Assembly (NCBI RefSeq): GCF_021412625.1
Contig: NZ_JAKCFI010000002.1
Span: forward strand, 186,001-250,000
Direction: 5' to 3'
Length of the DNA stretch: 64,000 nucleotides
From: Myxococcus stipitatus
GTDB taxonomy: Bacteria; Myxococcota; Myxococcia; Myxococcales; Myxococcaceae
Under the pieces are notes generated by a model. That model saw only the letters and a list, made by a program, of their open reading frames with translations. It did no database searches and was not told where the DNA came from. The position numbers were made by a program, and so were the translations under genes. This document shows, one piece after another, positions 30,988 through 62,266 of the stretch (positions are counted from its first letter, which is position 1; every line of letters begins with the position of its first letter).

Positions 30988-30991
<4 letters not shown>
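29588..30991 (-). CDS. MFS exporter of the NRPS/PKS cluster
   Basis: A 467-residue inner-membrane transporter with about 12 helices and the MFS motif A between helices 2 and 3 (GALVDRWDRRRVM). The sequence (LTWLGQLVSSLGSGLTSFAVMVHVF at the start) fits the MFS_3/enterobactin-exporter-like group common in myxobacterial NRPS clusters. The ATG overlaps the NRPS stop as ATGA, so it is the last gene of the minus-strand biosynthetic operon, and export of the finished product is the obvious role. The 3' end overlaps the convergent 27821 gene by 30 bases. Confidence 0.88.
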
Positions 30992-44643
<13,652 letters not shown>

Positions 44644-47700: not shown

Positions 47701-49379
47701 ACCTCCGCGCGGAAGACGGGCTCGGTGGAGTACAGCCCGGCGCCCATGCCCGCGTACTGGCTTCCGCCGCCGGGCAGGAGGAAGACCACCGGCCGGGAGC
47801 GGGACTCCTGGATGGCGTGGACGACGCGCTCGGGCTCCTCGCCGCGCAGCACGCGCACCGCGTGCTCACGGTCCTTCACCACGGCCATGCGGCGGTGCTG
47901 GAACTGCTGGCGCCCCACCTGGAGCGTGTACGCCACGTCCGCGAGCGGCTGCTCCGGGTGCTGCTCCAGCCACGTGGCCAGCGCCGACGTCGCCGTGTCG
48001 AGCGCGGTGTCCGTCCGCGTGGACAGCGGCAGCAGGTGCCACGGCCTGCCCTCGGCGGAGCGCTCGGGGGCAGGGGCCTCCTCGAGGACGAGGTGCGCGT
48101 TGGTGCCGCCGATGCCGAACGAGCTGACGCCCGCGCGGCGCACGGACGCGGCCCAATCACGCAGCGTGGTGTTGACGAAGAAGGGGCTGGTGTCCAGCTC
48201 GAGCTGGGGGTTGGGCTGCTCGAAGTGGAGGGTGGGGGGCAGCTGACGGTGCTTCAGGCACAGCACGGCCTTGATGAGGCTGGCGATGCCGGCCGCGGCG
48301 TCCAGGTGGCCGATGTTCGTCTTCACCGAGCCGAGCGCGCAGAAGCCCACCTCGTCGGTGCTGGCGCGGAAGGCCTTGGTGAGGGCGCGCACCTCGATGG
48401 GGTCTCCCAGCTGGGTGCCCGTCCCATGCGTCTCCACGTAGGTGACGCTGCGCGCGTCCACGTCCGCCGCCGCCAGCGCGTCGCGGATGACGCGGGCCTG
48501 CCCCTGAACGCTGGGCGCCCCGAAGCTCGCCTTCTGCGCGCCGTCGTTGTTGATGGCCGAGCCGCGGATGACGGCATGGATGGTGTCGCCGTCGGCGAGC
48601 GCGTCCTCCAGTCGCTTGAGCACCACCACGCCCGCGCCGTTGCCGAACAGCGTGCCCTGGGCCTTCGCGTCGAACGCGCGGCAGTGTCCGTCCGGCGAGG
48701 TGATTCCGCCGAACTGGTGCAGGTAGCCGGTGCGCTGGGGCGTCTGGATGGCCACGCCACCCGCGAGCGCGACGCGGCACTCGCCGGCCAGCAGGGCCTG
48801 TCCGGCCAGGTGTACCGCCACCAACGCCGTGGAGCAGGCGGTGTGCAGCGAGTACGCCGGTCCGCGCAGGTTGAGCAGGTGCGACACGCGCGTGCTGAGG
48901 AAGGCCAGGTCATTGCCCAGGCCGACCTCGAAGGCGCCGGTGCCCGCGAGCGCGCCGGGGTTGGAGAAGAGGTTGAAGACGTACGTGTTGGTGCGCGCGC
49001 CCGCGTAGACGCCGATGCGCTCCCGGTAGCGCGCCGGGTCGTAGCCCGCGTCCTCGAGCGCTGTCCACGCGCACTCCAGGAACACGCGGTGCTGCGGGTC
49101 CATCAGCTCGGCCTCCTTGGGCAGGAGCCCGAAGAAGGACGCGTCGAAGTCCTCCGCGCCGTCGACGACGGCCGCGGCGCGCACGTAGGCCGGGTCCTTG
49201 CGCAGGGCCGGGTCCTCCATGATGGAGGGCTCCAGCTCCGACTCCTGGAGGAAGGTGATGGACTCCACCCCCTCCCGCAGGTTGCGCCAGTACGCGTCGA
49301 CGTCCTTGGCGCCCGGGAGGCGGCAGGCCATCCCGATGATTGCAATCTCCAGCCCGTTCCAATGGGTATCGCCAGCCAT
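44760..49379 (-). CDS. Type I PKS module, KS-AT-KR-ACP
   Basis: A 1539-residue single-module PKS; ATG 49379 (MAGDTHWNGLEIAIIGMACR) has AGGA upstream, and the longer upstream frame is rejected. KS: Cys in LHTACSTALVA near 178, His in ETHGTGTQLGD and NIGHLDAA. AT: GHSLGEYAAACLAG near 620; the specificity motif reads KAAH, neither the malonyl HAFH nor the methylmalonyl YASH. KR near 1150: GGLGGVG, with Lys (PKVHGTY), Ser (FSSNAAV), Tyr (YASAN) in place. ACP LGGHSLL near 1460. No DH or ER. The acidic C terminus (ANVPEDQLEAELV) looks like a docking element for the NRPS encoded 116 bases downstream. It should add one beta-hydroxy ketide unit before the peptide part. Confidence 0.93.
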   Translation of the reverse strand: MAGDTHWNGLEIAIIGMACRLPGAKDVDAYWRNLREGVESITFLQESELEPSIMEDPALRKDPAYVRAAAVVDGAEDFDASFFGLLPKEAELMDPQHRVFLECAWTALEDAGYDPARYRERIGVYAGARTNTYVFNLFSNPGALAGTGAFEVGLGNDLAFLSTRVSHLLNLRGPAYSLHTACSTALVAVHLAGQALLAGECRVALAGGVAIQTPQRTGYLHQFGGITSPDGHCRAFDAKAQGTLFGNGAGVVVLKRLEDALADGDTIHAVIRGSAINNDGAQKASFGAPSVQGQARVIRDALAAADVDARSVTYVETHGTGTQLGDPIEVRALTKAFRASTDEVGFCALGSVKTNIGHLDAAAGIASLIKAVLCLKHRQLPPTLHFEQPNPQLELDTSPFFVNTTLRDWAASVRRAGVSSFGIGGTNAHLVLEEAPAPERSAEGRPWHLLPLSTRTDTALDTATSALATWLEQHPEQPLADVAYTLQVGRQQFQHRRMAVVKDREHAVRVLRGEEPERVVHAIQESRSRPVVFLLPGGGSQYAGMGAGLYSTEPVFRAEVDRLATLFQPHVGLDLRGVLLGEPGKPAPELERNVVALPAIFTMEYALARLWMAWGVEPEVMVGHSLGEYAAACLAGVLTVEDAAVLVALRGQLMDGLPAGAMLSVSLSEAELRPLLGDTLDLAAVNAPGQCVASGPVEAVEALAATLAARGVEHRRLHLTKAAHSRMLDAVLPAFRARVEALTLRAPERPYVSSLTGRQVTAEDVTRPEYWVDHLRRTVRFQEALREVLAEPARVLLEVGPGQTLLALAKLQGEAPGARPLVATTRHPKDPQPAEAFLQGALGRLWLAGVDVDWAAVHAHGLRHRVTLPTYPFERERYWVPPGERSTPVATANAPVGKSADVADWFYLPAWKRTLAPALAPDALATRRGWVVFTDGGPLATRLVALLEEAGQDVVSVFAGTSFSRDGDRRFTVAPDQGADHVSLMKALAERAPRPEVFVHLWSLTPQGEVDSSAERFRATQSRGYYSVLALAQALAESGSSEPVRVEVVSNHVHAPDDAAEALAEKAPMLGVCKVLPQEQQHIGTRCIDVVLPGPQGVEALASRLLAELTTRSRDMMVAYRGTRRWAQEFTATPLGGDAAPTRPLREKGVYLLTGGLGGVGLLLAEHLARTQRARLVLLGRSPLPPREEWDGWLTSHGEDDRASRLIRRVRDMESHGAEVLILAADVADAARMRQVLEQVDARFGTLHGVLHCAGVTFGDSLYNPLTDLGTQASETQFRPKVHGTYVLEEVLRGRSLDFVLLFSSNAAVLGGLGYLAYASANIFLDAFAASRAGRSQDGTPWVSASWDSWPEETKHYAGFKTSMDQYAMTREESAEAVRRLVTLGVDGPVVVATGDLPYRLGVWIHRDAPVSRPAAANAAARKSRKGTHVPPANEMEQAIAAIWQEVLGIEQVGRHESFFDLGGHSLLATRIVGRLRSSFQVELPLAKLFEVSTVAGLAQAVSIAQAEREESLYRELLDQVANVPEDQLEAELVRASGD

Positions 49380-49408
49380 GGTGTCCTGAGTCCCCTCGGT
49401 GCGTGGTG

Positions 49409-50737
49409 TCAGAGGTCCCGCCTGCGCGCGCGCTGTTGCTCGAGCGCGGAGCGACGGCGTGCTCCGGGTGCTTCGTCCTGTTCCCAGTCGTCCCCGCCGC
49501 CCGTCGCGCGCCCGGGGCGCGGCGTCGTGGTCGCGGTCGTCGGCAGGCCCACCTTCGCCAGCAGGCCCTCGAGGTGCTGCCTCGCCACGAGCAGTCCCTG
49601 CTCGGTCCGGACGCGCTCGCCCAGCGCGGCGGCGGACTCGCGCAGGCGCGAGGACTCCAGGGCCTCGCGGATGGCCTCTCCCAGGCGCTCGGCGGTGAGC
49701 CGCGCGGCGGGCAGGGGCGCCGGTGCGCAGCCGCGCGCGAAGCCCAGGTCCGCCCAGAGGAACTGGTCGTACGCGTGCGGCACGAGCACCTGCGGCACGC
49801 CCGCGCGGAACGCCAGCGCGCATGTCCCGGCGCCGCTGTGGTGCACCACCGCCGCCACGCGCGGGAACAGCCACGCATAGGGCAGCATGCCGTCCACGGC
49901 CAGGAAGCCCGGCGGCAGCGGGCGTCGCGCCAGTTGGCTCCAGCCGCTCTGGATGATGGCCCTGCGCCCCGTGCGCTGGGCCGCCGTCACCAGCAGGTCC
50001 GTGAAGCCATCCGGGTCCTCGTGCTTGAGGCTGCCGAAGGTGAAGAACAGGGGAGGTGCTCCCTCCGCCAGGAAGTCCCGCAGCGGCGCGGGGGGCTCCC
50101 AGGCGAGCGCGCCGTCCTCCATGAAGAAGTAGCCGACCATGTGGTGGTGGCCCGGCCAGTCCCTCGGCGGCGGACGCACGTGGCGGCTCATGGCGTACAG
50201 CACGAGCTGCGGTGACTCGCCGTCCACCAGCGGGTTGTGGAAGGGCGGCAGGCCCGCCTTCTCCCGGACGGGATTGACGATCTGCCTCACCGCCTCCTGG
50301 AAGGCTGGATGGCCGCCGCCGCTGCCCGAATGCTCCACGTAGATGGACGCGAACGGGATGCCCGTGAGGTCATGCACCATCCGCGAGGCGGGCTGCACGC
50401 GCCCGCTGACGAGCAGGTCCGCGCTCGCGCACGCCTGACGCAGGTCCTCCAGCATGCGCGGCAGTCCTCGCGCCAGGGGCGCGAACATGGACTGGAGCTG
50501 GTCCGCGGCGCCGATGCGCTCGGGGCTCACCAGCAGCGCCTGGGTGATGTCGTCCTGGGCTCCGCGCAGGTCGTCGCCCACCGGCGTGAACGCCACGCCG
50601 TGCTGCCTCGCCAGGGGTTCGAAGGCCGGTGGCAGCGCGAGCACGGGTTGGTGCCCGTGCCGCCGCAGCTCCACCGCCAGGGCGACGAAGGGAAGGATGT
50701 CCCCCGTGCTACCGAAGTTCGTCAGCACCGCGCGCAT
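49409..50737 (-). CDS. GT1-family (macrolide/MGT-like) glycosyltransferase
   Basis: A 442-residue GT-B enzyme; ATG 50737 (MRAVLTNFGSTGDILPFVAL) has GGAG upstream and places the acceptor-domain motif at the N terminus, whereas the ATG at 50761 has none. The donor-binding C-terminal motif is HHSGAGTCALAFRAGVPQVL followed by the Asp-Gln pair in AYDQFLWAD that contacts the nucleotide sugar. This is the CAZy GT1 pattern of antibiotic and sterol glycosyltransferases. As the first gene of the minus-strand biosynthetic operon, 29 bases before the PKS start, it probably glycosylates the product. No sugar-modifying genes are visible, so a common UDP-sugar donor is likely. Confidence 0.9.
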   Translation of the reverse strand: MRAVLTNFGSTGDILPFVALAVELRRHGHQPVLALPPAFEPLARQHGVAFTPVGDDLRGAQDDITQALLVSPERIGAADQLQSMFAPLARGLPRMLEDLRQACASADLLVSGRVQPASRMVHDLTGIPFASIYVEHSGSGGGHPAFQEAVRQIVNPVREKAGLPPFHNPLVDGESPQLVLYAMSRHVRPPPRDWPGHHHMVGYFFMEDGALAWEPPAPLRDFLAEGAPPLFFTFGSLKHEDPDGFTDLLVTAAQRTGRRAIIQSGWSQLARRPLPPGFLAVDGMLPYAWLFPRVAAVVHHSGAGTCALAFRAGVPQVLVPHAYDQFLWADLGFARGCAPAPLPAARLTAERLGEAIREALESSRLRESAAALGERVRTEQGLLVARQHLEGLLAKVGLPTTATTTPRPGRATGGGDDWEQDEAPGARRRSALEQQRARRRDL

Positions 50738-51242
50738 CGACACTCTCCGGGACCGCTCCACGCATGAGCCCTGCCGCCGCCCGCCTCGCCGACACGAGGA
50801 CCTCCTCGCGACAGGCGATGGCGCGATACATCGGCCGACAAGGCTCGATTATCGGTAAGTACATGCAATGCTGGATTTAATGCTAGATGGGTTTTAGCTT
50901 GGGATGCATGTACGGTGCGCCAACAGTGCTCCTGGGGGAGGTCGCGCTCTCCCTCTATAGAGAGGAGCGGGCGGGTGGCGTGAGTGTATGGGGCGGGAAA
51001 TTCTTATTTCGCGAAAAACATACTTTGCTTGATTGGCTTGAGTAACAGCAGTGTCGCCATAGACATGCTTCTGCCGGAAATGTTCAGCGACGATTCAAAA
51101 GCGTCATGGCGTGAGGGCCGGGTGGCGTGACACCAGGTGGGGGCCTCTGGATGCAGGTGGCCTCCGCCGCGTTCGCGTGACCTGTCCTTCATTTCCCTGT
51201 GCGAGGCCCGACCGTGGAGGTTTCCGCGTCCCGCGTGGCGCG
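50738..51242. promoter_or_regulatory. Divergent control region of the biosynthetic cluster
   Basis: About 505 bases without a credible gene between the two arms of the cluster. Much of it (50860-50930 and 51000-51110) is far richer in A/T than the surrounding coding DNA, as expected for back-to-back promoters. It includes TTGCTTGATTGGCTTGAGTAAC near 51032 and the palindrome listed separately. I see no clear sigma-54 or extracytoplasmic-sigma promoter and no tRNA or transposon trace. Confidence 0.6.
50949..50967. promoter_or_regulatory. Palindrome, possible operator or hairpin
   Basis: CTCTATAGAG at 50953-50962 is a perfect 10-base palindrome, extended on each side by CTCC/GGAG with one bulged A, giving an eight-pair interrupted stem. 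In the middle of the divergent promoter region it could be a regulator binding site or a transcript hairpin. No matching second copy was seen nearby. Confidence 0.35.
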
Positions 51243-54200
51243 GTGACACGGCCGTGGCTCGCGGAAGTCGAGGAGGAGCGGGTGTTTCCAGAGGGCCTGA
51301 ATCTCGTGGACGTGTTGCGCTCCCGCGCGGAGCGACAGGGAACCGAGCTGCTCTACCGGTTCCTCGAGACGGGGGACGTGGACGGTGGGACGGAGGAGTG
51401 GAGCTACGCGCGGCTGGATACCCGGGCGCGCGCGCTGGGGGCGCTGCTGCGCGAGCAGGGCGCGGCGGGGGAGCGGGCGTTGTTGCTCTACCCGCCGGGG
51501 CTGGAGTTCGTCGCCGGCTTCATGGGGTGCCTCTACGCGGGCGTGGTGGCGGTGCCGTGCTATCCGCCGGACCCGACGCGTCTGGAGCGCACGCTGCCCC
51601 GGCTGCGCGCCATCGCCCGGGACTGCGGCGCGAAGTATGTGCTGACCACCAGCTTCATCGTGGAGATGTCGGAGCTGTTCAGGCCGCAGGCGCCGGAGCT
51701 GGGGGAGCTGAGCTGGCTGGCCAGTGACGCCGTCCCGGACGCGCGCGCGGCGGACTGGCGGCGGCCGGAGCTGGCGCCGGGCTCGCTGGCCTTCCTCCAG
51801 TACACGTCGGGCTCCACCGGCACTCCCAAGGGGGTGATGGTGAGCCACGCGAACATCCTCCACAACGAGGTGCTCATCTCCCGTGGCTTCAACCTGGACC
51901 CGGCGCGTTCGTCGGGGATGGGGTGGCTGCCCATGTTCCACGACATGGGGCTCATCGGGAAGGTGCTCCAGCCGCTGTACCTGGGCTTCCCGTGCACGTT
52001 GATGTCGCCCATCGCCTTCCTGCAGCGCCCGCTGCGGTGGCTGGAGGCGGTCTCCCACTTCAAGGCGACGTGCAGCGGCGGCCCCAACTTCGCTTACGAC
52101 TTGTGCGCGCGGAAGGCCACCGAGGAGGACCGGGCGCGGCTGGACCTGTCGAGTTGGAAGGTGGCGTTCAACGGCGCGGAGCCGGTGCGGCGCGAGACGT
52201 TGGACCGCTTCGCCGAGGTGTTCGGCCCCTGCGGCTTCGAGCGCACGGCCTTCTATCCCTGCTATGGCCTGGCGGAGGCCACGCTCATCGTCACGGGCGG
52301 GACGCAGGGCGCGCCGTACGTGCACGGTCGCTTCGACGCGCAGGCGCTGGAGCAGGGCCACGCGCGAGCGCCGTCCGAGCCAGAGGTCCGCGCCCGGACG
52401 CTGGTGGGCTCCGGGCGGGGCGCGTCGGACCAGCGCACGCTCGTGGTGCACCCGGAGACGCGTGAGCCTCGCGCGGTGGGCGAGGTGGGCGAAGTCTGGG
52501 TGTCGGGCCCGAGCGTGGCCCAGGGGTACTGGCAGCGGCCCGAGGAGTCGGCCCACGCGTTCGGTGGGCGGCTGGCTTCGGGCGAGGGGCCCTTCCTGCG
52601 CACCGGGGACCTGGGCTTCTTCTCCGAGGAGGGAGAGCTGTTCGTCACCGGCCGCCTCAAGGACCTGATCATCGTCCGGGGACGCAACCTGTACCCGCAG
52701 GACCTGGAGCTGGCGGCGGAGCGGGCGCACCGCGCGGTGCGAGCCGGCTGCTGCGCGGCCTTCAGCGTGGAGGTGGAGGGCGAGGAGCGGCTGGTGCTGG
52801 TGGCGGAGGTGGACGCGCGCGAGGGCTTCGAGGCCGCGTCCGTCGTGGACGCCGTGCGCCGGGCGCTCGCGGAGGAGCACGCGGTGCACGCGCATGGCGT
52901 GGTGCTCATCCAGGCGCGCAGCATCCCCAAGACGTCCAGCGGGAAGATTCAACGTCGCGCCACCCGCGCGGCCTGGCTCGCCGGTGAGCTGGAGGTGGTG
53001 GAGTCGTCGGTGGTGGAGGGAGAGGCCGCGGAGGCCCCGCCGCTGGAGGACGAGGCGCCCCTGCGCGAGCGGCTGGCGGGCGCGCCCGAGGCGGAGCGCG
53101 GGGCGTTGGTGGAGCGGTTCGTGCGCGCCTCGCTCGCGCGCCAGCTTCGCGTGGACATGGAGGCGCTGGCGGGGGACACGCAGCTGGGGAGCCTGGGGCT
53201 GGACTCGCTGATGGTGCTGGACCTCCACGGGGCCCTGGAGTCCTCGCTGGGCGTGGCGCTGCCCGCGGCCTTCCTGTGGCAGCAGCCCACGGTCGCCTCG
53301 GCCGCCGAGGCCCTGTTGGATGCGTGGAAGGGCCGCGGGCCGGAGTCCGCGCTCGCCGCGCCGCCGCTCCTCGCGGGGCCCGCCGGGGGCGCGCCGCTGT
53401 CGTCGGGCCAAGCGCGCCTGTGGTTCCTCGACCGGCTGGTGCCCGACAGCCCGCTGTACCACGTGCACTTCCAGCTCCACCTCACGGGCCCCCTCGACGA
53501 GGCGGCCCTTCACCGGAGCCTGGACGCCCTGCTGGAGCGTCACCCCGTCCTGCGCTCCGCCTTCCCGGAAGTGGACGGCCAGCCCCGGCTGGAGACGCGC
53601 CCCGTGGTGGCGCCGACCTTGTCGCGGGTGGACCTGCGCGCCCTGTCGTCGGAGGCCCGGGACGCGGAGCTGCGGCGGCTGTCGCTCGCCCAGTCGCGCG
53701 AGCCCTTCCGCCTGGCGGAAGGGGCGTTGGTGCGAGCGCGGCTGGTGGCGCTGTCCGACACGGAGCACGTGCTGCTGATGACCCAGCACCACATCGTCAC
53801 GGATGGCTGGTCCATCGGCGTGCTGGCCCGCGAGCTGGCCGCCCTCTATGGCGCCGAGGCGCGCGGCGTCCCCTCCCCGTTGCCGGCGCCCGGCTTGCGG
53901 TACGCGGACTTCGCGCGGTGGCAGGGTGGGCTGGGCGCGTTGCTGGATGGGCAGCGCGCGTACTGGGCGCAGCGACTGGCCGGCCTGCCCCGGTTGGAGC
54001 TGCCCACGGACTTCCCCCGCCCCAGGGAGCCTGGCTTCCAGGGCGCGCTGCACCGCTTCACCCTGCCTCGCCCGCTGGTGGAGGAGTTGAAGGCCCTGAG
54101 CCGTCGCGAGGGCTGCACGCTCTTCGTCACCCTGGCGGCGGCGTGGGCCGCGCTGCTGCACCGCTACAGCGGCCAGGAGGACTTCGGCGTGGGCACGGTG

Positions 54201-57200
54201 GTGGCGAACCGCGAGCGCCCCGAGCTGCGCGACGTGGTGGGCTTCTTCGCGCAGACGCTGGTGCTGCGCGCGGACGTCTCCGGTCAGCCCGGCTTCCGCG
54301 AGCTGTTGCGGCGCACGCGTCGCACCTTCCACGACGCGCTCGCGCACGGGGACCTGCCCTTCGAGGAGGTGGTGGGCGCGGCGCGCGTGGCCCGTGGCGC
54401 GGACAACCCGCTGTTCCAGACGAGCCTCCTGCTGGAGGCGCTGCCGTCGCTGGACATGCCGGTGCCCGGGATGACGTGGCGGCCGGTGCTGCCCGTGCCG
54501 GATGGCGCGGTCGAGGGCACGGCCAAGTTCGACCTCCAGTTGTCCCTGGTCGAGTCGGCGGAGGGGCTCGCCGCCGCGCTGGAGTTCCGCACGGACCTCT
54601 TCGCGCCCGCGACGATGGTCCGGCTGGCCGGCCACCTGGAGACGCTGCTGCGCGCCGTGGTGGCGACGCCGGAGGCGCGCGTCGAGGACCTGCCGCTGCT
54701 CACCCAGGGCGAGCAGCGCAAGCTCCTAATCGAGTGGAACGACCTGACGCCGCCGGCGCCCGAGGACGACGCCTCGTGCATCCACGCCCAGCTTCGCGCC
54801 CAGGCGGCGCGCACGCCGGACGCGGTGGCGGTGGTGGGCGACGACGACATGCTCACCTACGCGGAGCTGGACCGGCGCAGCGACGCGCTGGCGTGGCACC
54901 TGCGGTCGCTGGGCGTGGGCCCCGAGGTGCGGGTGGGCCTGTGCGTGGAGCGGTCGGCGCGCATGGTGGTGGCGATGGTGGGCGTGCTCAAGGCGGGCGG
55001 CGCCTACGTGCCGTTGGACCCGGACTATCCGAGAGAGCGGCTGGCCTACATGTTGGAGGACTCGGGCGCGGCGGTGCTGCTCACCGAGTCGCACCTGGAG
55101 GGCCTCGTGTCCGAGGGGCGCACGCGCACCGTGCTGCTGGACGCGGAGCCCGTCGCCGGGGCCGTGGCCCAGGATGCGCCTCCCGCCTCGGGGACGGGGC
55201 CGGGGAGCCTGGCGTACGTCATCTACACCTCCGGCTCCACCGGCAAGCCCAAGGGCGTCATGGTGCCCCACGGGGGCGTGGCGAACTTCTTCACCGCCAT
55301 GGACGCGAGGGTGGGGCCCCGACCCCAGGGCTCCTGGCTGGCCGTCACCAGCATCTCCTTCGACATCTCCGTGCTGGAGCTGCTGTGGACGCTGGCGCGG
55401 GGCTTCAAGGTGGTCGTGCAGGCGGAGGGCGCGCTGACGAAGGCCCCGGCCCGCGCGTCGTCGGCGCGTCGCAAGCCGCTGGACTTCAGCCTCTTCTACT
55501 TCGCGGATGACGCGGAGGCCTCCTCGGGGGACCGCTATCGCCTGTTGATGGAGGGTGCCCGGTTCGCGGACCGCCACGGCTTCGCGGCGGTGTGGACGCC
55601 GGAGCGCCACTTCCACGCCTTCGGCGGGCTGTACCCCAACCCGTCCGTGGCGGGCGCGGCCATCGCGGCCATCACCGAGCGCGTGGCCATCCGCGCCGGC
55701 AGCGTGGTGCTGCCGCTGCATCACCCGGTGCGCGTGGCGGAGGAGTGGTCCCTGGTGGACAACCTCTCCCGCGGCCGCGTGGGCATCTCCGTGGCGTCGG
55801 GCTGGCACGCCAACGACTTCGTCTTCGCGCCGGAGCGTTACGAGAGGCGCCGCGAGCTGATGATGGAGGGGCTGGAGACGGTGCGCAGGCTGTGGCGGGG
55901 CGAGACGCTGCGAATGCCCGGTGGCGCGGGCACGCAGGTGGACGTGACGCTGCGTCCCCGGCCGGTGCAGGCGGAGCTGCCGGTGTGGCTCACGGCGGCG
56001 GGCAACCCGGACACGTTCATCTCCGCGGGCAAGGCGGGCTGCCACGTCCTCACCCACCTGCTGGGGCAGACGTACGACGACCTGGAGAAGCGGCTGGTCC
56101 TCTACCGCGACGCGTGGCGAGCGGCGGGGCACGCGGGAGACGGCCACGTCACCCTCATGCTGCACACCTTCATCGGCGAGGACGTCGGCCAGGTGCGTTC
56201 GGTGGTGGAGCGCCCGTTCCGCAACTACCTCAAGAGCTCCGCGGACCTCATGCGCGGCCTGGGTCGCACGTTGGGGCTGGACATGGACTCCAAGGCCTTC
56301 ACGGACGCGGACCTGGACCGGCTGGCGGGGCATGCCTTCGAGCGCTACTTCGAGACGAGCGGCCTGTTCGGCACGCCGCGCTCCGTGCGTGACTCCGTGG
56401 AGCGGCTCAAGGCGCTGGGCGTGGACGAGGTGGGGTGCCTCATCGACTTCGGCATCGCCTCCGACACAGTGCTCGCGAGCCTGCCGCTGCTGCGCGAGGT
56501 GAAGGAGCGCAGCGACCGGGACGGACGGCGCGCGGGCGGCGCGAGGCCCCTGCCGCTCCAGCTCCGCGAGCACGCGGTGACGCACCTGCAATGCACGCCG
56601 TCGCTGGCGCGCGCGCTGCTGGCCGACCCGGAGGCCGTGGAGGCGATGGGCGGCCTGCGGCGGATGATGGTGGGCGGCGAGGCGCTGCCCACGCCCCTGG
56701 CCGATTCGCTGCGCGCCGCGCTGCCGGAGGGCGCCGCGCTGCTGAACATGTACGGCCCAACGGAGACGACCATCTGGTCCTCCACGCATGGGGTGGGGGA
56801 GGAGGTGGGGCCGGTGGCGTCCATCGGCACGCCCTTCAGCCGCACGCAGTTCTACATCCTCGACGCGAAGCTGCGGCCGGTGCCCGTGGGCGTGCCGGGC
56901 GAGCTGTACATCGGCGGCGCGGGCGTGGTGCGCGGCTACCTGTCGCGGCCGGCCCTGACGGCGGAGCGCTTCGTCCCGGACCCGTTCGGCGCCGAGCCCG
57001 GCGCGCGGCTTTACCGCACGGGAGACCGGGCGCGGTGGCGCGACGACGGCACGGTGGACTTCCTGGGCCGCGTGGACCACCAGCTCAAGGTGCGTGGCTT
57101 CCGCATCGAGGCGGGTGAAATCGAGGCGGTGCTGGCCGAGCAACCCGGCGTGCGCGAGGTGGTCGTGGTGGCCCGCGAGGACTCGCCGGGCGACGTGCGG

Positions 57201-57731
57201 CTGGTCGCCTACGTGGCGCCGCGCGAGGGCCAGACGGTGGACGCGGTGTCGCTGCGCGACGCGACGGCGCGGCGGCTGCCGGAGCACATGGTGCCGTCGC
57301 TGGTGGTGGAGCTGCCGTCGCTCCCGCTGACGCCCAACGGCAAGGTGGACCGCAAGGCGTTGCCGGCGCCCACGGCGACCCGCGCCTCCAAGGCGGCCTA
57401 CGTGGCGCCGCAGGGCCAGCTGGAGCAGCAGCTCGCCGCGGTGTGGCGCGAGGTGCTCAAGGTGGAGCAGGTGGGCGTGCACGACAACTTCTTCGACCTG
57501 GGCGGGCACTCGCTGCTCATGGTCCAGGTGCACGCGAGGTTGAAGGTGGCGTTGGGACAGGAGCTGTCGCTGCTCAAGCTGCTCGAGCACCCCACCATCA
57601 GCGCCCTGGCGCGACACCTGCGACAGGAGCCCGCGGCGGGCGCGGCGCCCGTCGAGGCCGCGCAGGACCGCGCGAAGCGTCAGCTCGAGAGCCTCAAGCG
57701 TCAGCAGCAGCGCGCAAGGAAGCAGGGGTAG
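51243..57731 (+). CDS. FAAL-ACP-C-A(monooxygenase)-PCP starter protein
   Basis: About 2162 residues; start uncertain (GTG 51243 chosen, GTGs at 51111 and 51306 also in frame). Order: fatty acyl-AMP ligase (YTSGSTGTPKGVMV near 187, FHDMGLIGKVLQPLY, SGGPNFAYDLC); ACP LGLDSLM near 652; C domain HHIVTDGWS near 850; A domain from near 1180 with YTSGSTGKPKG near 1327. After A4 (SFDISVLELLW) a ~350-residue luciferase-like monooxygenase is inserted (about 1414-1760: FSLFYFADDAEA, WTPERHFHAFGG, SVASGWHANDF); the A domain resumes to NMYGPTE near 1834. PCP LGGHSLL near 2086, basic coiled C terminus. Hand-read code DILQMGMIWK, close to the Gly code DILQLGLIWK. It should load a fatty acid, couple Gly and oxidise it, as in MtaG/MelG-type proteins. 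Confidence 0.9.
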   Translation: MTRPWLAEVEEERVFPEGLNLVDVLRSRAERQGTELLYRFLETGDVDGGTEEWSYARLDTRARALGALLREQGAAGERALLLYPPGLEFVAGFMGCLYAGVVAVPCYPPDPTRLERTLPRLRAIARDCGAKYVLTTSFIVEMSELFRPQAPELGELSWLASDAVPDARAADWRRPELAPGSLAFLQYTSGSTGTPKGVMVSHANILHNEVLISRGFNLDPARSSGMGWLPMFHDMGLIGKVLQPLYLGFPCTLMSPIAFLQRPLRWLEAVSHFKATCSGGPNFAYDLCARKATEEDRARLDLSSWKVAFNGAEPVRRETLDRFAEVFGPCGFERTAFYPCYGLAEATLIVTGGTQGAPYVHGRFDAQALEQGHARAPSEPEVRARTLVGSGRGASDQRTLVVHPETREPRAVGEVGEVWVSGPSVAQGYWQRPEESAHAFGGRLASGEGPFLRTGDLGFFSEEGELFVTGRLKDLIIVRGRNLYPQDLELAAERAHRAVRAGCCAAFSVEVEGEERLVLVAEVDAREGFEAASVVDAVRRALAEEHAVHAHGVVLIQARSIPKTSSGKIQRRATRAAWLAGELEVVESSVVEGEAAEAPPLEDEAPLRERLAGAPEAERGALVERFVRASLARQLRVDMEALAGDTQLGSLGLDSLMVLDLHGALESSLGVALPAAFLWQQPTVASAAEALLDAWKGRGPESALAAPPLLAGPAGGAPLSSGQARLWFLDRLVPDSPLYHVHFQLHLTGPLDEAALHRSLDALLERHPVLRSAFPEVDGQPRLETRPVVAPTLSRVDLRALSSEARDAELRRLSLAQSREPFRLAEGALVRARLVALSDTEHVLLMTQHHIVTDGWSIGVLARELAALYGAEARGVPSPLPAPGLRYADFARWQGGLGALLDGQRAYWAQRLAGLPRLELPTDFPRPREPGFQGALHRFTLPRPLVEELKALSRREGCTLFVTLAAAWAALLHRYSGQEDFGVGTVVANRERPELRDVVGFFAQTLVLRADVSGQPGFRELLRRTRRTFHDALAHGDLPFEEVVGAARVARGADNPLFQTSLLLEALPSLDMPVPGMTWRPVLPVPDGAVEGTAKFDLQLSLVESAEGLAAALEFRTDLFAPATMVRLAGHLETLLRAVVATPEARVEDLPLLTQGEQRKLLIEWNDLTPPAPEDDASCIHAQLRAQAARTPDAVAVVGDDDMLTYAELDRRSDALAWHLRSLGVGPEVRVGLCVERSARMVVAMVGVLKAGGAYVPLDPDYPRERLAYMLEDSGAAVLLTESHLEGLVSEGRTRTVLLDAEPVAGAVAQDAPPASGTGPGSLAYVIYTSGSTGKPKGVMVPHGGVANFFTAMDARVGPRPQGSWLAVTSISFDISVLELLWTLARGFKVVVQAEGALTKAPARASSARRKPLDFSLFYFADDAEASSGDRYRLLMEGARFADRHGFAAVWTPERHFHAFGGLYPNPSVAGAAIAAITERVAIRAGSVVLPLHHPVRVAEEWSLVDNLSRGRVGISVASGWHANDFVFAPERYERRRELMMEGLETVRRLWRGETLRMPGGAGTQVDVTLRPRPVQAELPVWLTAAGNPDTFISAGKAGCHVLTHLLGQTYDDLEKRLVLYRDAWRAAGHAGDGHVTLMLHTFIGEDVGQVRSVVERPFRNYLKSSADLMRGLGRTLGLDMDSKAFTDADLDRLAGHAFERYFETSGLFGTPRSVRDSVERLKALGVDEVGCLIDFGIASDTVLASLPLLREVKERSDRDGRRAGGARPLPLQLREHAVTHLQCTPSLARALLADPEAVEAMGGLRRMMVGGEALPTPLADSLRAALPEGAALLNMYGPTETTIWSSTHGVGEEVGPVASIGTPFSRTQFYILDAKLRPVPVGVPGELYIGGAGVVRGYLSRPALTAERFVPDPFGAEPGARLYRTGDRARWRDDGTVDFLGRVDHQLKVRGFRIEAGEIEAVLAEQPGVREVVVVAREDSPGDVRLVAYVAPREGQTVDAVSLRDATARRLPEHMVPSLVVELPSLPLTPNGKVDRKALPAPTATRASKAAYVAPQGQLEQQLAAVWREVLKVEQVGVHDNFFDLGGHSLLMVQVHARLKVALGQELSLLKLLEHPTISALARHLRQEPAAGAAPVEAAQDRAKRQLESLKRQQQRARKQG

Positions 57732-57736
57732 ACATC

Positions 57737-60700
57737 ATGGCTCGTCACACCCGGTACGAAGGGGACCCGGGCCTCGCGGTGGCCATCGTCGGGATGGCCG
57801 CGCGGGTGCCTGGAGCCGAGGACGTGGAGGCGTTCTGGCGCATGTTGCGCGAGGGCGTGGAGGGCATCTCCTTCTTCACGGAGGAAGCGATGAAGGCGCT
57901 GGGCGTGGAGCCCGGCTGGCTGGCGCAGCCGCACTTCGTGCGCGCGGCCCCGGTGCTGGAGCGGCCCGGGCGCTTCGACGCGGCCTTCTTCGGCTACGCG
58001 CCGCGCGAGGCGGAGCTGATGGACCCGCAGCACCGCGTCTTCCTGGAGTGCGCGTGGAAGGCGCTGGAGCACGCGGGCTACGCGCCGGGACGGCTCCCGG
58101 GCTCCACGGGCGTCTTCGCGGGCTCCAGCCTGAGCAGCTACCTGCTGTTCAACCTGCTCTCCCGCGCGGAGTTCCAGCAGGCCGAGGACACGTTCCCGGC
58201 CATGGTGGGCAACGACAAGGACTTCCTCGCCACGCGCGTGGCCTACCACTTCAACCTCAAGGGCCCCGCCCTCACCGTGCAGACGGGCTGCTCCACGTCG
58301 CTGGTGGCCACGCACCTGGCCTGTCAGGCGCTGCTGGGTTACCAGTGCGACCTGGCGCTGGCGGGGGGCGTGTCCGTGCACATGCCCCAGCGCTCGGGCT
58401 ACCACCATCAGGAGGGCGGCATCACCTCGCCGGACGGGCACTGCCGCGCGTTCGACGCGAAGGGGCAGGGCACGTTGTTCGGCAGCGGCGCGGGCGTGGT
58501 GGTGCTCAAGCGGCTGGAGGACGCGCTCGCCGACGGTGACACCATTCACGCCGTCATCCGCGGCTCGGCCATCAACAACGACGGCGCGGTGAAGGTGGGC
58601 TTCACGGCCCCGGGGGTCGAGGGACAGGCGGAGGTCATCACCCGCGCGCAGGCGGTGGCGGAGGTGTCGCCGGAGTCCATCACCTACGTGGAGGCGCACG
58701 GCACGGCGACCCCACTGGGAGACCCCGTGGAGGTGCAGGCGCTCACCCAGGCCTTCCGTGCCGGGACGGAGCGGCGCGGCTACTGTGGACTGGGCTCGGT
58801 GAAGACCAACGTGGGCCACCTGGACGCGGCCGCGGGCGTCGCCGGCCTGCTCAAGACGGTGCTCGCGCTCGAGCACGCCGAGCTGCCCCCGAGCCTCCAC
58901 TTCGAGAAGCCCAACCCCCGCATCGACTTCGACAACAGTCCCTTCTACGTCAATGGCACGCTCCGCCCGTGGCCGGAGGGTGACACGCCCCGTCGCGCGG
59001 GGGTCAGCTCGTTCGGCATCGGCGGCACCAACGCGCACGTCATCCTGGAGGAAGCGCCCGTCATGGAGCCCGGCGGCGCCGCGCGCCCGTGGCAGCTGTT
59101 GACGCTGTCCGCGAAGACGCCCACGGCGCTGGAGGCCCAGACGACCGCGCTGTTGTCGCATCTGCGAGCCCATCCCGAGCAACAGCTCGCCGACGTGGCC
59201 TGGACGCTCCAGACGGGCCGCAAGCCCATGGAGTTCCGCCGGGTGGTGGTGTGCGCGGACCGGGACAGCGCCCTCGCGACGCTGTCGTCGAGAGACCCGC
59301 AGCGCCTCTTCACCCTGGCGCCGGGCAACGCCGCGCCCTCGGCCGTCTTCATGTTCCCCGGTGGCGGCGCGCAGTACCCGGACATGGGGCGCGGGCTCTA
59401 CGCGTCCGAGAAGGTGTTCCGCGAGGCCGTGGACCGGTGCTGTGAGCTGCTGCGGCCCCGGTTGGGCTTCGACCTGCGGCCCGTGATGTACCCGGACGCG
59501 GCGGCCGCGACGGACGCGGTGCAGCGGCTCAAGCGCACCTCGCTGGCGCTGCCGGCCCTCTTCACCGTGGAGTACGCGCTGGCGCAGCTGTGGCAATCCT
59601 GGGGCGTGCGGCCCGAGGCGCTCATCGGCCACAGCCTGGGCGAGTACGCGGCGGCGTGCCTGGCGGGAGTCTTCTCGTTGGAGGACGCGCTGGCGCTGGT
59701 GGTGTTGCGCGGCAAGCTCTTCGAGGAGTTGCCCGGAGGAGGGATGCTCAGCGTCCCGCTGCCGGAGTCGGAGGTGCGTCCGCTGCTGGGGACGACGCTG
59801 TCCATCGCGGCGATGAACGGGCCCGCGCAGTGCGCGGTGGCGGGCTCGGTGGAGGCCGTGGAGGCGCTGGCCGCGGAGTTGACCCGGCGCGAGGTGGAGT
59901 TCCGGCACATCCCCATCGACGTGGCCGCCCACTCGCACCTGGTGGAGCCGCTGCTCGCGCGCTTCCAGGCCTTCGTGGGCACCCTGCGGCGCAATCCTCC
60001 GTCGCTGCCCATCGTCTCCAACGTCTCGGGGACGTGGATGACGCCGGAGGAGGCGGTCGACCCGGCGTACTGGGCGCGGCACCTCCGCCAGACGGTGCGC
60101 TTCGGAGACGGCATCCGCACCCTGGCGGCCCAGCCCGGTCGCATCTATCTGGAGGTCGGCCCGGGCCGCACGCTGGGGACGCTCGCGCGCTTGCAGCTCA
60201 CCGGCCCCAACGCGCCCGCGGTGCTCTCCTCGCTGCGCCATCCCCAGGACCCGGTGGCGGACGACGAGTTCCTCACCACGACGGTGGGGCGCCTCTGGGC
60301 CTCGGGGGGCGAGGTGGATTGGAGCGCGGTCCATGGCGGCGTCCGGCGCCTGCGTGTCCCGCTGCCCACGTATCCGTTCGAGGGGCAGGACTACTGGCTG
60401 GCTCCCGAGGCGCCCTCGTCGCGGCGAAAGGGCGTGGCGCGCAAGAGTCCGGATGTCGCCAGCTGGTTCCATCTCCCCTCGTGGCAGCGCGCGCCGCTTC
60501 CGCTGCCGGGGGCCGGGGAGGAGAAGCCGCTCGGATGGCTCGTCTACCAGGACGCGGAGGGCCTGGGCGCGGCCCTGGCGGAGCGCCTGGAGCGGCGGGG
60601 CCACGGGGTCGTCCGCGTGACGCCGGGCGCGCGCTTCCAGCAGGAGACGGAGCGTCACTTCACCGTGGACCCGCGCGTGCGCGAGGACCATGAGCAGCTC

Positions 60701-62266
60701 CTGCGCGCGCTGAAGGCGAACGCGTTCCAGGTGCGGCGCGTCGTGTATCTGTGGAGCCTGGACGGCGGAGCCGCGACGGACTTCGACGCGGCCCAGGACC
60801 GGGGCTTCTTCGGTGTGCTGCGCGTCGCGCAGGCGCTGTCGGGCGCGGAGCTTCCGGAGCCGGTGTCGATGACGGTCGTGGGCCGCGAGGCGCTGGAGGT
60901 GGAGAGCGCGGACGTGGTGGCGCCCGAACGCGCGACGCTGCCCGCGCTCTGCAAGGTGATTCCGCAGGAGCTGGACACCCTGTCCTGCCGCTACGTGGAC
61001 CTGCGCGCGCCGACGGTGGACGCGCTGGTGCGCGAGGTGACGGCGCAGGTGGCGGACCCGGTGGTGGCGTGGCGTGGACCGCATCGGCACGTGCAGGCCT
61101 ACGAGCCCATGCGCATCGAGGCCGACACCCCGGCGGCCGTGCCGCTCGTCTCGCGCGGCGTGTATCTCATCACGGGCGGCCTGGGCGGCGTGGGCCTGCG
61201 GCTGGCGGAGTTCCTCGCTCGGCGCCACCAGGCACGGCTCGTCCTGGTGGGGCGCTCGGGCGTGGGTGAAGACCAGGACGGGCATCGCCAGCAGGCGGTG
61301 CGGGCGCTGGAGGCTGTGGGCGCGGAGGTGCTGGTGGCTCGCGCCGACGTGGCCGATGAGGCCCAGTTGCGCGCGGTGCTCGCGCAGGCCGAGGCCCGCT
61401 TCGGTGCCCTCCACGGTGTCATCCACGCGGCGGGGCTCGCGGGAGACGCGGCCGTCGCGTTGCTCGGTGGGATGGAGCCGTCGACGTGCGCGCCCGTCTT
61501 CCACGCGAAGGTGCATGGCACGTACGCGCTCGAGCGGGCGCTGGCGGGCCGCTCGCTGGACTTCGTGTTGCTCGTGTCCTCCAACGCGTCGGTGCTCGGC
61601 GGCCTCGGGCTGGGCGCCTATGCGGCGGCCAACGCCTTCCTGGATGCCTTCGCCACGATGCGCTCCAGGCGGCCTGGGCCCCGGTGGTCGAGCGTGACCT
61701 GGGACGGTTGGCCGGCGGAGGCGTCGGGCGCGGGGAAGACCGTCCAGACGAGCATCGACCAGTTCGCGATGTCTCCCGCCGAGGCGGTGGAGGCGTTCCG
61801 CCGCGTGGTGGAGTCCCCGCTCGCGGGGCAGGTGGTGGTGTCCACCGGCAACCTGGACGCGCGCGTGGCGCAGTGGGTGCGCCGCGAGGGCGCGGGCGGG
61901 AAGAAGGAGGGGGGCGGCACGTTGCACGCGCGGCCCACGCTGGGCACCGAGTACGTGGCCCCCACCGACGACGTGGAGCACGCCCTGGTGCGGGTGTGGC
62001 AGGAGCAGCTGGGGCTGGAGCAGCTGGGCATCCACGACAACTTCTTCGACCTGGGAGGCAACTCGCTCCTGTGGCTGAAGATCGTCGGACGGTTGAAGCG
62101 CGAGCTGGGACGCGACGTCCCGCTCACCAGCGTCTTCGAGGCCCCCACCGTCGCCACCCTCGCCAAGAAGCTGGGGACGGCCCCCGCCCAAGCGGAGGCG
62201 CCAGTCTTCGAGACGAGCCAGAGCCGAGGGGCGCAACGCCGCGAGCGGCGCAACCGCCGCGAGTAG
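57737..62266 (+). CDS. Type I PKS module, KS-AT-KR-ACP
   Basis: A 1509-residue single module, 5 bases after the FAAL protein stop; AGGGG lies 8 bases before ATG 57737. KS: Cys in TVQTGCSTSLVA near 184 (Gly in place of the usual Ala before Cys), EAHGTATPLGD and NVGHLDAA. AT: GHSLGEYAAACLAG near 631, specificity motif VAAH. KR near 1146: GGLGGVG, Lys in AKVHGTY, Ser in VSSNASV, Tyr in AYAAAN. ACP LGGNSLLWLKI near 1440. The C terminus (QSRGAQRRERRNRRE) is strongly basic and may dock on the next PKS. No DH or ER is seen. It accepts an acyl-aminoacyl chain from the upstream PCP. Confidence 0.93.
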   Translation: MARHTRYEGDPGLAVAIVGMAARVPGAEDVEAFWRMLREGVEGISFFTEEAMKALGVEPGWLAQPHFVRAAPVLERPGRFDAAFFGYAPREAELMDPQHRVFLECAWKALEHAGYAPGRLPGSTGVFAGSSLSSYLLFNLLSRAEFQQAEDTFPAMVGNDKDFLATRVAYHFNLKGPALTVQTGCSTSLVATHLACQALLGYQCDLALAGGVSVHMPQRSGYHHQEGGITSPDGHCRAFDAKGQGTLFGSGAGVVVLKRLEDALADGDTIHAVIRGSAINNDGAVKVGFTAPGVEGQAEVITRAQAVAEVSPESITYVEAHGTATPLGDPVEVQALTQAFRAGTERRGYCGLGSVKTNVGHLDAAAGVAGLLKTVLALEHAELPPSLHFEKPNPRIDFDNSPFYVNGTLRPWPEGDTPRRAGVSSFGIGGTNAHVILEEAPVMEPGGAARPWQLLTLSAKTPTALEAQTTALLSHLRAHPEQQLADVAWTLQTGRKPMEFRRVVVCADRDSALATLSSRDPQRLFTLAPGNAAPSAVFMFPGGGAQYPDMGRGLYASEKVFREAVDRCCELLRPRLGFDLRPVMYPDAAAATDAVQRLKRTSLALPALFTVEYALAQLWQSWGVRPEALIGHSLGEYAAACLAGVFSLEDALALVVLRGKLFEELPGGGMLSVPLPESEVRPLLGTTLSIAAMNGPAQCAVAGSVEAVEALAAELTRREVEFRHIPIDVAAHSHLVEPLLARFQAFVGTLRRNPPSLPIVSNVSGTWMTPEEAVDPAYWARHLRQTVRFGDGIRTLAAQPGRIYLEVGPGRTLGTLARLQLTGPNAPAVLSSLRHPQDPVADDEFLTTTVGRLWASGGEVDWSAVHGGVRRLRVPLPTYPFEGQDYWLAPEAPSSRRKGVARKSPDVASWFHLPSWQRAPLPLPGAGEEKPLGWLVYQDAEGLGAALAERLERRGHGVVRVTPGARFQQETERHFTVDPRVREDHEQLLRALKANAFQVRRVVYLWSLDGGAATDFDAAQDRGFFGVLRVAQALSGAELPEPVSMTVVGREALEVESADVVAPERATLPALCKVIPQELDTLSCRYVDLRAPTVDALVREVTAQVADPVVAWRGPHRHVQAYEPMRIEADTPAAVPLVSRGVYLITGGLGGVGLRLAEFLARRHQARLVLVGRSGVGEDQDGHRQQAVRALEAVGAEVLVARADVADEAQLRAVLAQAEARFGALHGVIHAAGLAGDAAVALLGGMEPSTCAPVFHAKVHGTYALERALAGRSLDFVLLVSSNASVLGGLGLGAYAAANAFLDAFATMRSRRPGPRWSSVTWDGWPAEASGAGKTVQTSIDQFAMSPAEAVEAFRRVVESPLAGQVVVSTGNLDARVAQWVRREGAGGKKEGGGTLHARPTLGTEYVAPTDDVEHALVRVWQEQLGLEQLGIHDNFFDLGGNSLLWLKIVGRLKRELGRDVPLTSVFEAPTVATLAKKLGTAPAQAEAPVFETSQSRGAQRRERRNRRE

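Follow-up and report, generated by a model that had tools for sequence, protein, structure and literature searches.

A starter megasynthase of Myxococcus stipitatus with a monooxygenase inside its glycine-type adenylation domain, and the possible fate of the oxidised glycine

Introduction

What becomes of a glycine that is oxidised in the first module of an assembly line? This question is raised by a gene at positions 51243 to 57731 of a 64,000-nucleotide stretch of Myxococcus stipitatus DNA (contig NZ_JAKCFI010000002.1, positions 186,001 to 250,000; the whole stretch is called the window). The gene encodes a starter megasynthase of the order FAAL-ACP-C-A(MOX)-PCP: a fatty-acyl-AMP ligase (FAAL), an acyl carrier protein (ACP), a condensation (C) domain, an adenylation (A) domain into which a luciferase-like monooxygenase (MOX) is inserted, and a peptidyl carrier protein (PCP). 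The polyketide synthase (PKS) proteins PKS2 and PKS3 follow. In MtaG and MelG, a monooxygenase is inserted between motifs A4 and A5 and cleavage follows, according to excerpts of PMC10204066. The original prediction, which was made from the sequence, had named two fates for the oxidised glycine, namely transfer to the PKS or collapse. We regard it as an even call that this protein starts a lipo-polyketide-peptide line and passes an N-acyl-alpha-hydroxyglycyl unit to the ketosynthase (KS) of PKS2; transfer of N-acyl-alpha-hydroxyglycine is better supported than collapse.

Results and Discussion

The starter protein and its inserted monooxygenase

The domains of the starter were located with Pfam and NCBIfam; positions in amino acids (aa) refer to the 2162-aa reading from 51243.

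51243..57731, + strand: starter megasynthase FAAL-ACP-C-A(MOX)-PCP, 2162 aa (Pfam/NCBIfam; start codon uncertain)
51300..52997, + strand: FAAL-like domain, with AMP-binding and DIP2-like parts
53127..53324, + strand: ACP (LGLDSL), aa 629-694 (domain match and motif)
53391..54728, + strand: C domain with intact HHIVTDG, aa 717-1162 (domain match and motif)
54795..55472, + strand: N-terminal part of the A domain, through and past A4 (FDISVLE); boundary approximate
55485..56504, + strand: inserted luciferase-like MOX of family TIGR04020, aa 1415-1754 (532.9 bits; match to 6ket with 404 bits; model)
56562..57362, + strand: A domain resumed, with QCTPS, GGE, NMYGPTETTIW (A5), A7, A8 and A10 (domain match and motifs)
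57426..57620, + strand: PCP (LGGHSL), aa 2062-2126 (domain match and motif)
57660..57731, + strand: charged, conserved C-terminal tail (..RQLESLKRQQQRARKQG), a putative docking segment, retained in the orthologs compared; in split genomes a remnant (scar) of it is left ahead of PKS2

The reading frame is open from 51111 to 57731 on the + strand, with GTG candidates at 51111, 51177 and 51243 and more thereafter; 51243 is thus the third of several possible starts. AMP-binding was matched in three stretches, the best of which (aa 48-430) is FAAL-like and is accompanied by a DIP2-like part; models of fatty-acyl-AMP ligases match the starter below their own whole-protein cut-offs. An AMP-binding_C match lies at aa 1959-2034. 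The first protein begins with a FAAL, assigned by domain match, and an ACP, which is the layout of a FAAL-started line. Core motifs were found for the C domain (HHIVTDG), for A3, A7, A8 and A10, and for both carriers. The protein ends after the PCP, and the domain search found no thioesterase (TE) in it.

The insert matches TIGR04020 (FMN-dependent luciferase-like monooxygenases of the MupA/Atu3671 type; FMN, flavin mononucleotide) with 532.9 bits at a cut-off of 244.45, covering positions 1-341 of the 341 of the model, and the domain assignment of the original prediction was thereby confirmed. It starts about 36 residues past FDISVLE, the A4 motif, and the A domain resumes ahead of NMYGPTE, the A5 motif. 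The code is DILQMGMIWK, which is of the glycine type. The predicted picture of a Gly-type A domain that is split after A4 by a luciferase-like monooxygenase and then resumes stands. The code and the family point to glycine as the substrate. The A(MOX)-PCP part was modelled with AlphaFold2 (29 sequences; mean predicted local distance difference test score, pLDDT, of 81.1; predicted template modelling (TM) score, pTM, of 0.60), and the model matches 6ket, the oxygenase domain of PuwE that is titled a flavin-utilizing OX domain, with TM values of 0.91-0.93 and 50-51% identity. The match to the PheA adenylation domain (1amu) reaches a TM value of up to 0.76; both TM values are normalised by target length. 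As modelled, the insert is therefore a complete flavin-type oxygenase domain within a complete A domain.

Across ten ortholog pairs, the ratio of non-synonymous to synonymous substitution rates (dN/dS) of the MOX is 0.03-0.26, which indicates purifying selection. The MOX is the domain of highest identity, alone or tied, in seven of these pairs; PCP, ACP or FAAL are ahead in the other three. This conservation, the completeness of the domain and its match to 6ket argue against a reading in which the oxygenase is an inactive remnant and N-acylglycine is transferred without oxidation; we consider this reading highly improbable. The possibility that the starter frame itself is a chance or frame artefact was ruled out, because orthologs with 73-83% identity exist in genomes of the same genus and the oxygenase is under the purifying selection just described.

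Judged by analogy, the built-in monooxygenase very probably oxidises glycine, and the reaction would be a hydroxylation of the alpha-carbon if it resembles those of MtaG/MelG and SolF. An active oxygenase might also perform another oxidation, such as an N-hydroxylation, a Baeyer-Villiger-type insertion or a later imide or heterocycle step, or it might act with partial flux, so that congeners containing glycine form alongside oxidised ones. In excerpts of PMC8739492, a variety of oxidations is attributed to luciferase-like monooxygenases that work in assembly lines; isoxazoles and pyrimidinols arise from myxobacterial PKS-NRPS (nonribosomal peptide synthetase) lines, as the available part of PMC8868522 on myxadazoles and myxofacyclines states; and solanimycins A and B differ by a skipped oxidation step (PMC10204066, in part). 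A GMC oxidoreductase gene (L004:2482-4119, PF05199/PF00732) lies behind PKS3, just outside the window, and is found at the same place in genome G105 and locus L101, which would fit a further oxidation. The reported cases of a MOX in a Gly A domain, as far as excerpts of PMC11342130 and PMC10204066 describe them, act on the glycine alpha-carbon, and we therefore consider these variants unlikely, albeit deserving of some weight.

Transfer to PKS2 and conservation of the gene pair

The gene behind the starter is the candidate recipient of the oxidised unit:

57737..62266, + strand: PKS2, KS-AT-KR-ACP (AT, acyltransferase; KR, ketoreductase), active-site motifs found (domain and motif search)

Its start codon (57737) lies five bases past the stop codon of the starter, and the core motifs of KS, AT, KR and ACP are present. 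PKS2 and PKS3 (KS-AT-ACP) follow a first module that stands behind FAAL-ACP-C, as had been predicted. In the mechanism that we propose, the FAAL would load a fatty acid onto the ACP, the C domain would couple the fatty acyl group to glycine loaded on the PCP by the A domain, and the inserted flavin monooxygenase would hydroxylate the alpha-carbon of this glycine. The KS of PKS2 would then take the N-acyl-alpha-hydroxyglycyl thioester instead of an ordinary acyl starter, and the chain would proceed through KS-AT-KR-ACP, KS-AT-ACP and KS-AT-KR-ACP, four amino acids and a thioesterase. A glycosyltransferase encoded in the cluster might decorate a hydroxyl, possibly that of the hemiaminal; a glycosylated hemiaminal hydroxyl would block collapse.

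With the whole protein as query and six or nine best candidates scored per genome, full-length starter orthologs (73-83% identity) were found in 21 of the 26 genomes of the same genus, which is Myxococcus according to named relatives such as M. xanthus AM003 and Myxococcus sp. CA023. A further ortholog, in G017, is in two frames (72 and 80%), which brings the number of holders to 22; this gene, G017:C1:2821004-2827425, is broken although the genome consists of one contig. No starter ortholog was found in G010, G016, G019 and G022, also not in a deeper recheck with 28-43 scored A(MOX) and 113-141 scored PKS2 candidates: neither gene is present, the best A(MOX) reaching 68% and the best full-length PKS2 match 52%. 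PKS2 orthologs of at least 73% identity are present in 20 of the 22 holders and in none of the four non-holders, and PKS2 begins within 15 bases behind the starter in 14 of the 22. The exceptions are G002, where another PKS lies 1.2 kb behind the starter (52% identity to PKS2, 71% to the type II PKS of G130), and G015, whose genome contains pieces of the type II PKS. Note that these genomes are related and do not represent independent events; the co-occurrence of starter and PKS2 is therefore to be read as linkage and not as statistics.

Further indications come from a paralog in G006 (L079), a single polypeptide of the order FAAL-C-A(MOX)-PCP followed by three further A-bearing modules. As it continues with C-A-PCP modules, release at the oxidised glycine would break the chain in cis. 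The core motifs of starter and PKS2, their adjacency and co-occurrence, the layout of L079 and the presence of a glycosyltransferase (GT1 or GT4) in all ten inspected neighbourhoods with PKS genes near the starter (window and nine genomes) support transfer. Precedent is provided by solanimycin B, in which, according to excerpts of PMC10204066, alpha-hydroxyglycine is kept through further elongation.

Collapse and the points against transfer

The alternative is a collapse as in MtaG/MelG, which would free a fatty-acid primary amide and leave a glyoxylyl residue on the PCP, which would either serve the PKS as primer or be lost; the solitary copies of the gene would in that case make fatty amides. 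A tree of the oxygenases bears on this alternative. It was calculated quickly with IQ-TREE from 108 rows, i.e. PuwE and 107 of 129 selected MOX sequences (22 near-copies or fragments were dropped beforehand), with a midpoint root and with SH-aLRT values but no bootstrap as support. The MOX of the window belongs to a FAAL group of 21 rows (SH-aLRT 99), and not to the separate group formed by the five MtaG-like rows (SH-aLRT 99). The C-A(MOX)-PCP-TE rows require four changes on the tree, one of which is forced by supported branches. Since terminal and internal use are mixed in the tree, the phylogeny cannot decide the fate of the oxidised glycine.

Several observations weigh against transfer. 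The insertion site between A4 and A5 is that of MtaG/MelG, where hydroxylation leads to cleavage, whereas the insert of SolF is located between A8 and A9 (PMC10204066, in part); the Gly-type code is likewise shared with MtaG-like proteins. A relative with a formyltransferase-like N-terminus, L147, ends with A(MOX)-PCP-TE. In Corallococcus carmarthensis, an intact FAAL-ACP-C-A(MOX)-PCP gene (L102:6473-13021) is solitary, with unrelated neighbours; no KS gene lies within 10 kb on its downstream or 6 kb on its upstream side. The MOX of G118 is identical to that of L102, and this genome has no PKS2 ortholog above 52%. A solitary starter such as L102 has no obvious release route except hydrolysis or the collapse of MtaG, and the amide route could be real there. 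Finally, in the M. xanthus-like G006, L099 and L100, which lack an adjoining PKS2 ortholog, the relocated starter lies about 1.2-1.4 kb from an unrelated PKS (ACP-KS-AT-AT-DH-KR-ACP in G006; DH, dehydratase), and this PKS might be served by the starter instead.

On the other hand, PKS2 stands directly behind the starter in the window and in most holders, MtaG-like proteins carry a TE in cis that the starter lacks, its MOX lies outside their clade, and L079 goes on with C domains in cis. Taken together, we judge collapse to be unlikely for the window.

In six of the 20 genomes with both genes (G001, G006, G007, G018, G021, G023), the starter is far from PKS2 or on another contig. In five of these genomes, a stretch of 67-91 bases ahead of PKS2 can still be aligned with the 3' terminus of the window-type starter gene (near G006:C1 4279245 in L180; the other scars are in L182-L184 and L186); in G021 the alignment is only 22 bases long. 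The tail ..RARKQG plus stop codon is kept in four split genomes, and the frame is disturbed in G023. These scars were judged by sequence and position, because the BLAST E-values also cover the start of PKS2. The remote starters carry another tail (..RQRQRARK), as does that of G024, where the starter adjoins PKS2. The pattern looks like a reciprocal loss between two lines, the starter having been lost in one and kept in the other. In the split genomes compared, both halves are open and constrained, with dN/dS values of 0-0.26 by domain for the starter (four pairs from four genomes) and of 0.10-0.19 for PKS2 among four genomes, which fits a shared pathway. Our preferred reading is that the starter may supply PKS2 in trans in these genomes.

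In G006 and G021, a type II PKS (77%) is found about 16 kb from PKS2. No starter of the window family stands beside that of G006; at a distance of about 3 kb from its type II pair, the gene of a family-2 starter (58%; the protein of L079) begins in divergent orientation, and the lone starter gene of the window family is at 5.65 Mb. The region G006:C1:4264000-4304999 (L180, L181) contains the type I line and, about 16 kb from it, the two type II PKS genes together with their GT4 and cupin genes. Such neighbours allow other readings than supply of PKS2 in trans.

The proposed assembly line and its cluster types

The remaining genes of the putative line, most of them on the other strand, are as follows:

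62312..64000, + strand: PKS3, KS-AT-ACP, continuing to 65485 beyond the window (domain search)
49409..50761, - strand: EryCIII-like glycosyltransferase of the GT1 type, divergent (domain search)
44760..49874, - strand: PKS4, KS-AT-KR-ACP, divergent, with a probable start near 49400
30988..44643, - strand: NRPS of four C-A-PCP modules that ends in a thioesterase (domain search and code reading)
29588..30991, - strand: MFS transporter, with a 63% ortholog beside the relocated starter gene in G006

The start of PKS4 is placed near 49400 because the upper part of its reading frame overlaps the glycosyltransferase gene. The codes of the NRPS modules are DSALIAEVWK, DSALIAEMLK, DALWLGGTFK and DAQDLGVVDK, two of which we take to be Val- and Gln-like. 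The glycosyltransferase, PKS4 and the NRPS modules with their thioesterase on the divergent strand had been overlooked in the original prediction. In G013, G026 and G142, starter, PKS2, PKS3, glycosyltransferase and PKS4 follow one another on the same strand, and within the fetched stretches of G013 and G142 the NRPS starts behind PKS4. The divergent genes are therefore read as the probable second half of the same line, in the order suggested by the relatives. This line would join a fatty acyl group, the oxidised glycine, three C2 units and four amino acids, and end at a thioesterase. The statement that a thioesterase is missing thus holds for the starter protein but not for the line so reconstructed, whose TE would be that of the divergent NRPS. 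The arrangement in G105 matches the window as far as fetched (PKS4 85%, PKS2 88%, PKS3 82%, GMC oxidoreductase 81%, NRPS 70% and glycosyltransferase 86% identity); the MOX of G105 is identical to that of Archangium lansinium (L103).

The ten genomes for inspection of the neighbourhoods were our own selection. Two types of clusters can be distinguished. Type I (window, G105, G013, G026, G142, L101) contains a GT1 glycosyltransferase and, where the fetched stretch reached, PKS4 and the NRPS. L101 (BNCN01000007.1) is titled Comamonas sp. KCTC 72670; the MOX of its starter is identical to that of G024, which belongs to the genus of the window, and the record is probably mislabelled or contaminated. 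Type II (G130, G117, G124, G002, and G139 with another gene order) consists of KS-AT-KR-ACP, a second KS-AT protein, a GT4 glycosyltransferase and a cupin gene; the NRPS of the window was unmatched in the fetched flanks. An apparent fusion of this second PKS protein with the GT4 glycosyltransferase is seen in G124, where both lie in one open frame of 1463 aa (L068:4645-9033).

A third glycosyltransferase type, GT2, is carried by two formyltransferase-type clusters of Rhodobacteraceae (2 of 2 tested). The glycosyltransferase search gave no match at L102, L099, L100 and the Streptomyces locus L126, and the GT1 search none in the fetched type I stretches of the split G006. The co-occurrence pattern prompts the tentative idea that glycosylation might cap the hemiaminal hydroxyl, which would be the candidate site of the sugar.

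Relatives in other bacteria

With six or nine best candidates scored per genome, A(MOX) matches at 1e-60 or better were found in 65 of 195 genomes of the phylum and in 11 of 90 genera. Fifteen A(MOX) units of our selection were aligned (alignment A1); in all of them the code is of the Gly type and the insert lies at the A4-A5 site. When named genomes were scanned with A1, 588 relatives were obtained, of which 80 loci were kept; the following counts are among the matches listed. A formyltransferase-like N-terminus is present in 47 of the 80 loci and a FAAL in nine (phmmer). Formyl_trans was assigned by Pfam in L178 and L128, and the other 45 were found by phmmer with these two as queries. A KS-bearing gene, before or behind A(MOX), occurs in the fetched flank of 36 of the 47 formyltransferase-like loci; one of the 36 shows only a KS at the contig end. 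The code reads DILQMGMIW, DILQLGMIW or DILQLGMVW in 64 of 81 matches (motif search; some letters misread). In Streptomyces (L126), FAAL-C-A(MOX)-PCP is followed by a KS-AT-KR-ACP-C-A-PCP protein. Modules of the Gly-A(MOX)-PCP kind that have a KS gene as partner occur in several phyla, and in most of them a formyltransferase-like domain stands in front.

Further loci show variations of the theme. A two-gene system of formyltransferase-A(MOX)-PCP and KS-AT-KR-DH-ACP-TE (Pfam) is located at L178:8330-19486; we know of no product of such two-gene systems. L008 (C30 of the window's own genome), L080, L093, L094 and L097 have the order KS-AT-ACP-C-[A-like MOX A-like]-C-A and their MOX form one group. 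Their A halves are degenerate (FDIS absent, 33-82 bits) and no carrier was found immediately after them; the arrangement looks like an A(MOX) of which only a scaffold is left. In L092 and L098, an apparent second, methyltransferase-like insert is seen by eye behind A8. A corallorazine-like cluster on a Burkholderia glumae plasmid (L193, NZ_CP099586.1) comprises an NRPS with an A(MOX) match, a reductase, a fatty acyl-AMP ligase, two acyl-CoA dehydrogenases, an ACP, a P450 and an FMN reductase; its host is outside Serratia and Pseudomonas, the genera named in the available part of PMC11342130.

Judging by these sequences, the layout is less unique than first thought and recurs in many bacteria. 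The view that both fates would be wholly new chemistry cannot be maintained: solanimycin B is reported to keep its hydroxyglycine, as noted above, and A(MOX)-PCP with a KS gene is widespread. A wider idea, which we put forward only tentatively and with more doubt than the proposal for the window, is that N-acyl-alpha-hydroxyglycyl thioesters form a general class of primers for polyketides. N-capped with a fatty acid by a FAAL or with a formyl-type group by a formyltransferase domain, they would be extended by a KS across many phyla, and a glycosyltransferase of the cluster would lock the hemiaminal. In M. xanthus-like genomes, one remote starter might then supply even two PKS lines without starters of their own.

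If hydroxyglycine is kept, a single self-contained module would place an N-acyl hemiaminal at the start of a polyketide, and its gene would be a handle on a motif found in few products. In the case of collapse, the module would be a fatty-amide synthase and a source of a glyoxylyl starter. With the conserved clade (22 of 26 genomes) and the formyltransferase-linked relatives (47 of the 80 kept loci), knowledge of the fate of the glycine would bear on many pathways whose products were not found described.

Comparison with known systems

In the open-licence literature searched, neither a characterised FAAL-C-A(MOX)-PCP-KS pathway with its product nor an assay of any enzyme of the window's MOX clade was found; the searches led to papers on solanimycin, corallorazine and palmerolide. 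Identity of the cluster with those of the myxofacyclines or myxadazoles was considered as a possibility. The word monooxygenase is absent from the fatuamide paper (PMC11877528), and FAAL, MOX and monooxygenase are absent from the main text of the M. xanthus paper PMC11619377.

The starter shares with MtaG/MelG, as far as excerpts describe them, a Gly A domain with a MOX between A4 and A5. The original prediction of the same device therefore stands for the domain and its site, but not for the type of module: the MtaG/MelG module is the last of its line, whereas that of the window is the first, with FAAL-ACP in front, PKS modules behind, no TE in cis and a MOX of another clade. Plain membership in the terminal MtaG/MelG type was ruled out on the last two grounds. 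At the MtaG-like loci, namely L081-L084 and L133 (Pyxidicoccus fallax), the order is C-A(MOX)-PCP-TE. Upstream of L083, proteins of the order KS-AT-methyltransferase-ACP and methyltransferase-KR-ACP are encoded, which presumably corresponds to the MtaE/F/G order of myxothiazol.

The oxygenase domain of PuwE (puwainaphycin; 6ket) has the same fold and belongs to the same family (51% identity in the structural match); it is not known to lie inside an A domain. The formyltransferase systems likewise have an N-capped, starter-like module with a Gly-type A(MOX) and a KS gene as partner. They differ in that a formyltransferase-like domain takes the place of FAAL-ACP-C, the MOX are on separate branches, and the KS gene lies before or behind. 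In the 38 crz-like pathways of Serratia and Pseudomonas, the MOx is also part of a glycine-recruiting A domain, which is that of the second module of a lipodipeptide pathway (PMC11342130, in part), and skyllamycin is described as relying on a stand-alone enzyme (excerpts of PMC10204066). Closest with regard to the proposed fate is module 4 of SolF (solanimycin, Dickeya solani), which, in the same excerpts, has a flavin monooxygenase inserted in a Gly A domain; it differs from the starter of the window in its A8-A9 insertion and in the PKS that stands ahead, and a FAAL is not mentioned there.

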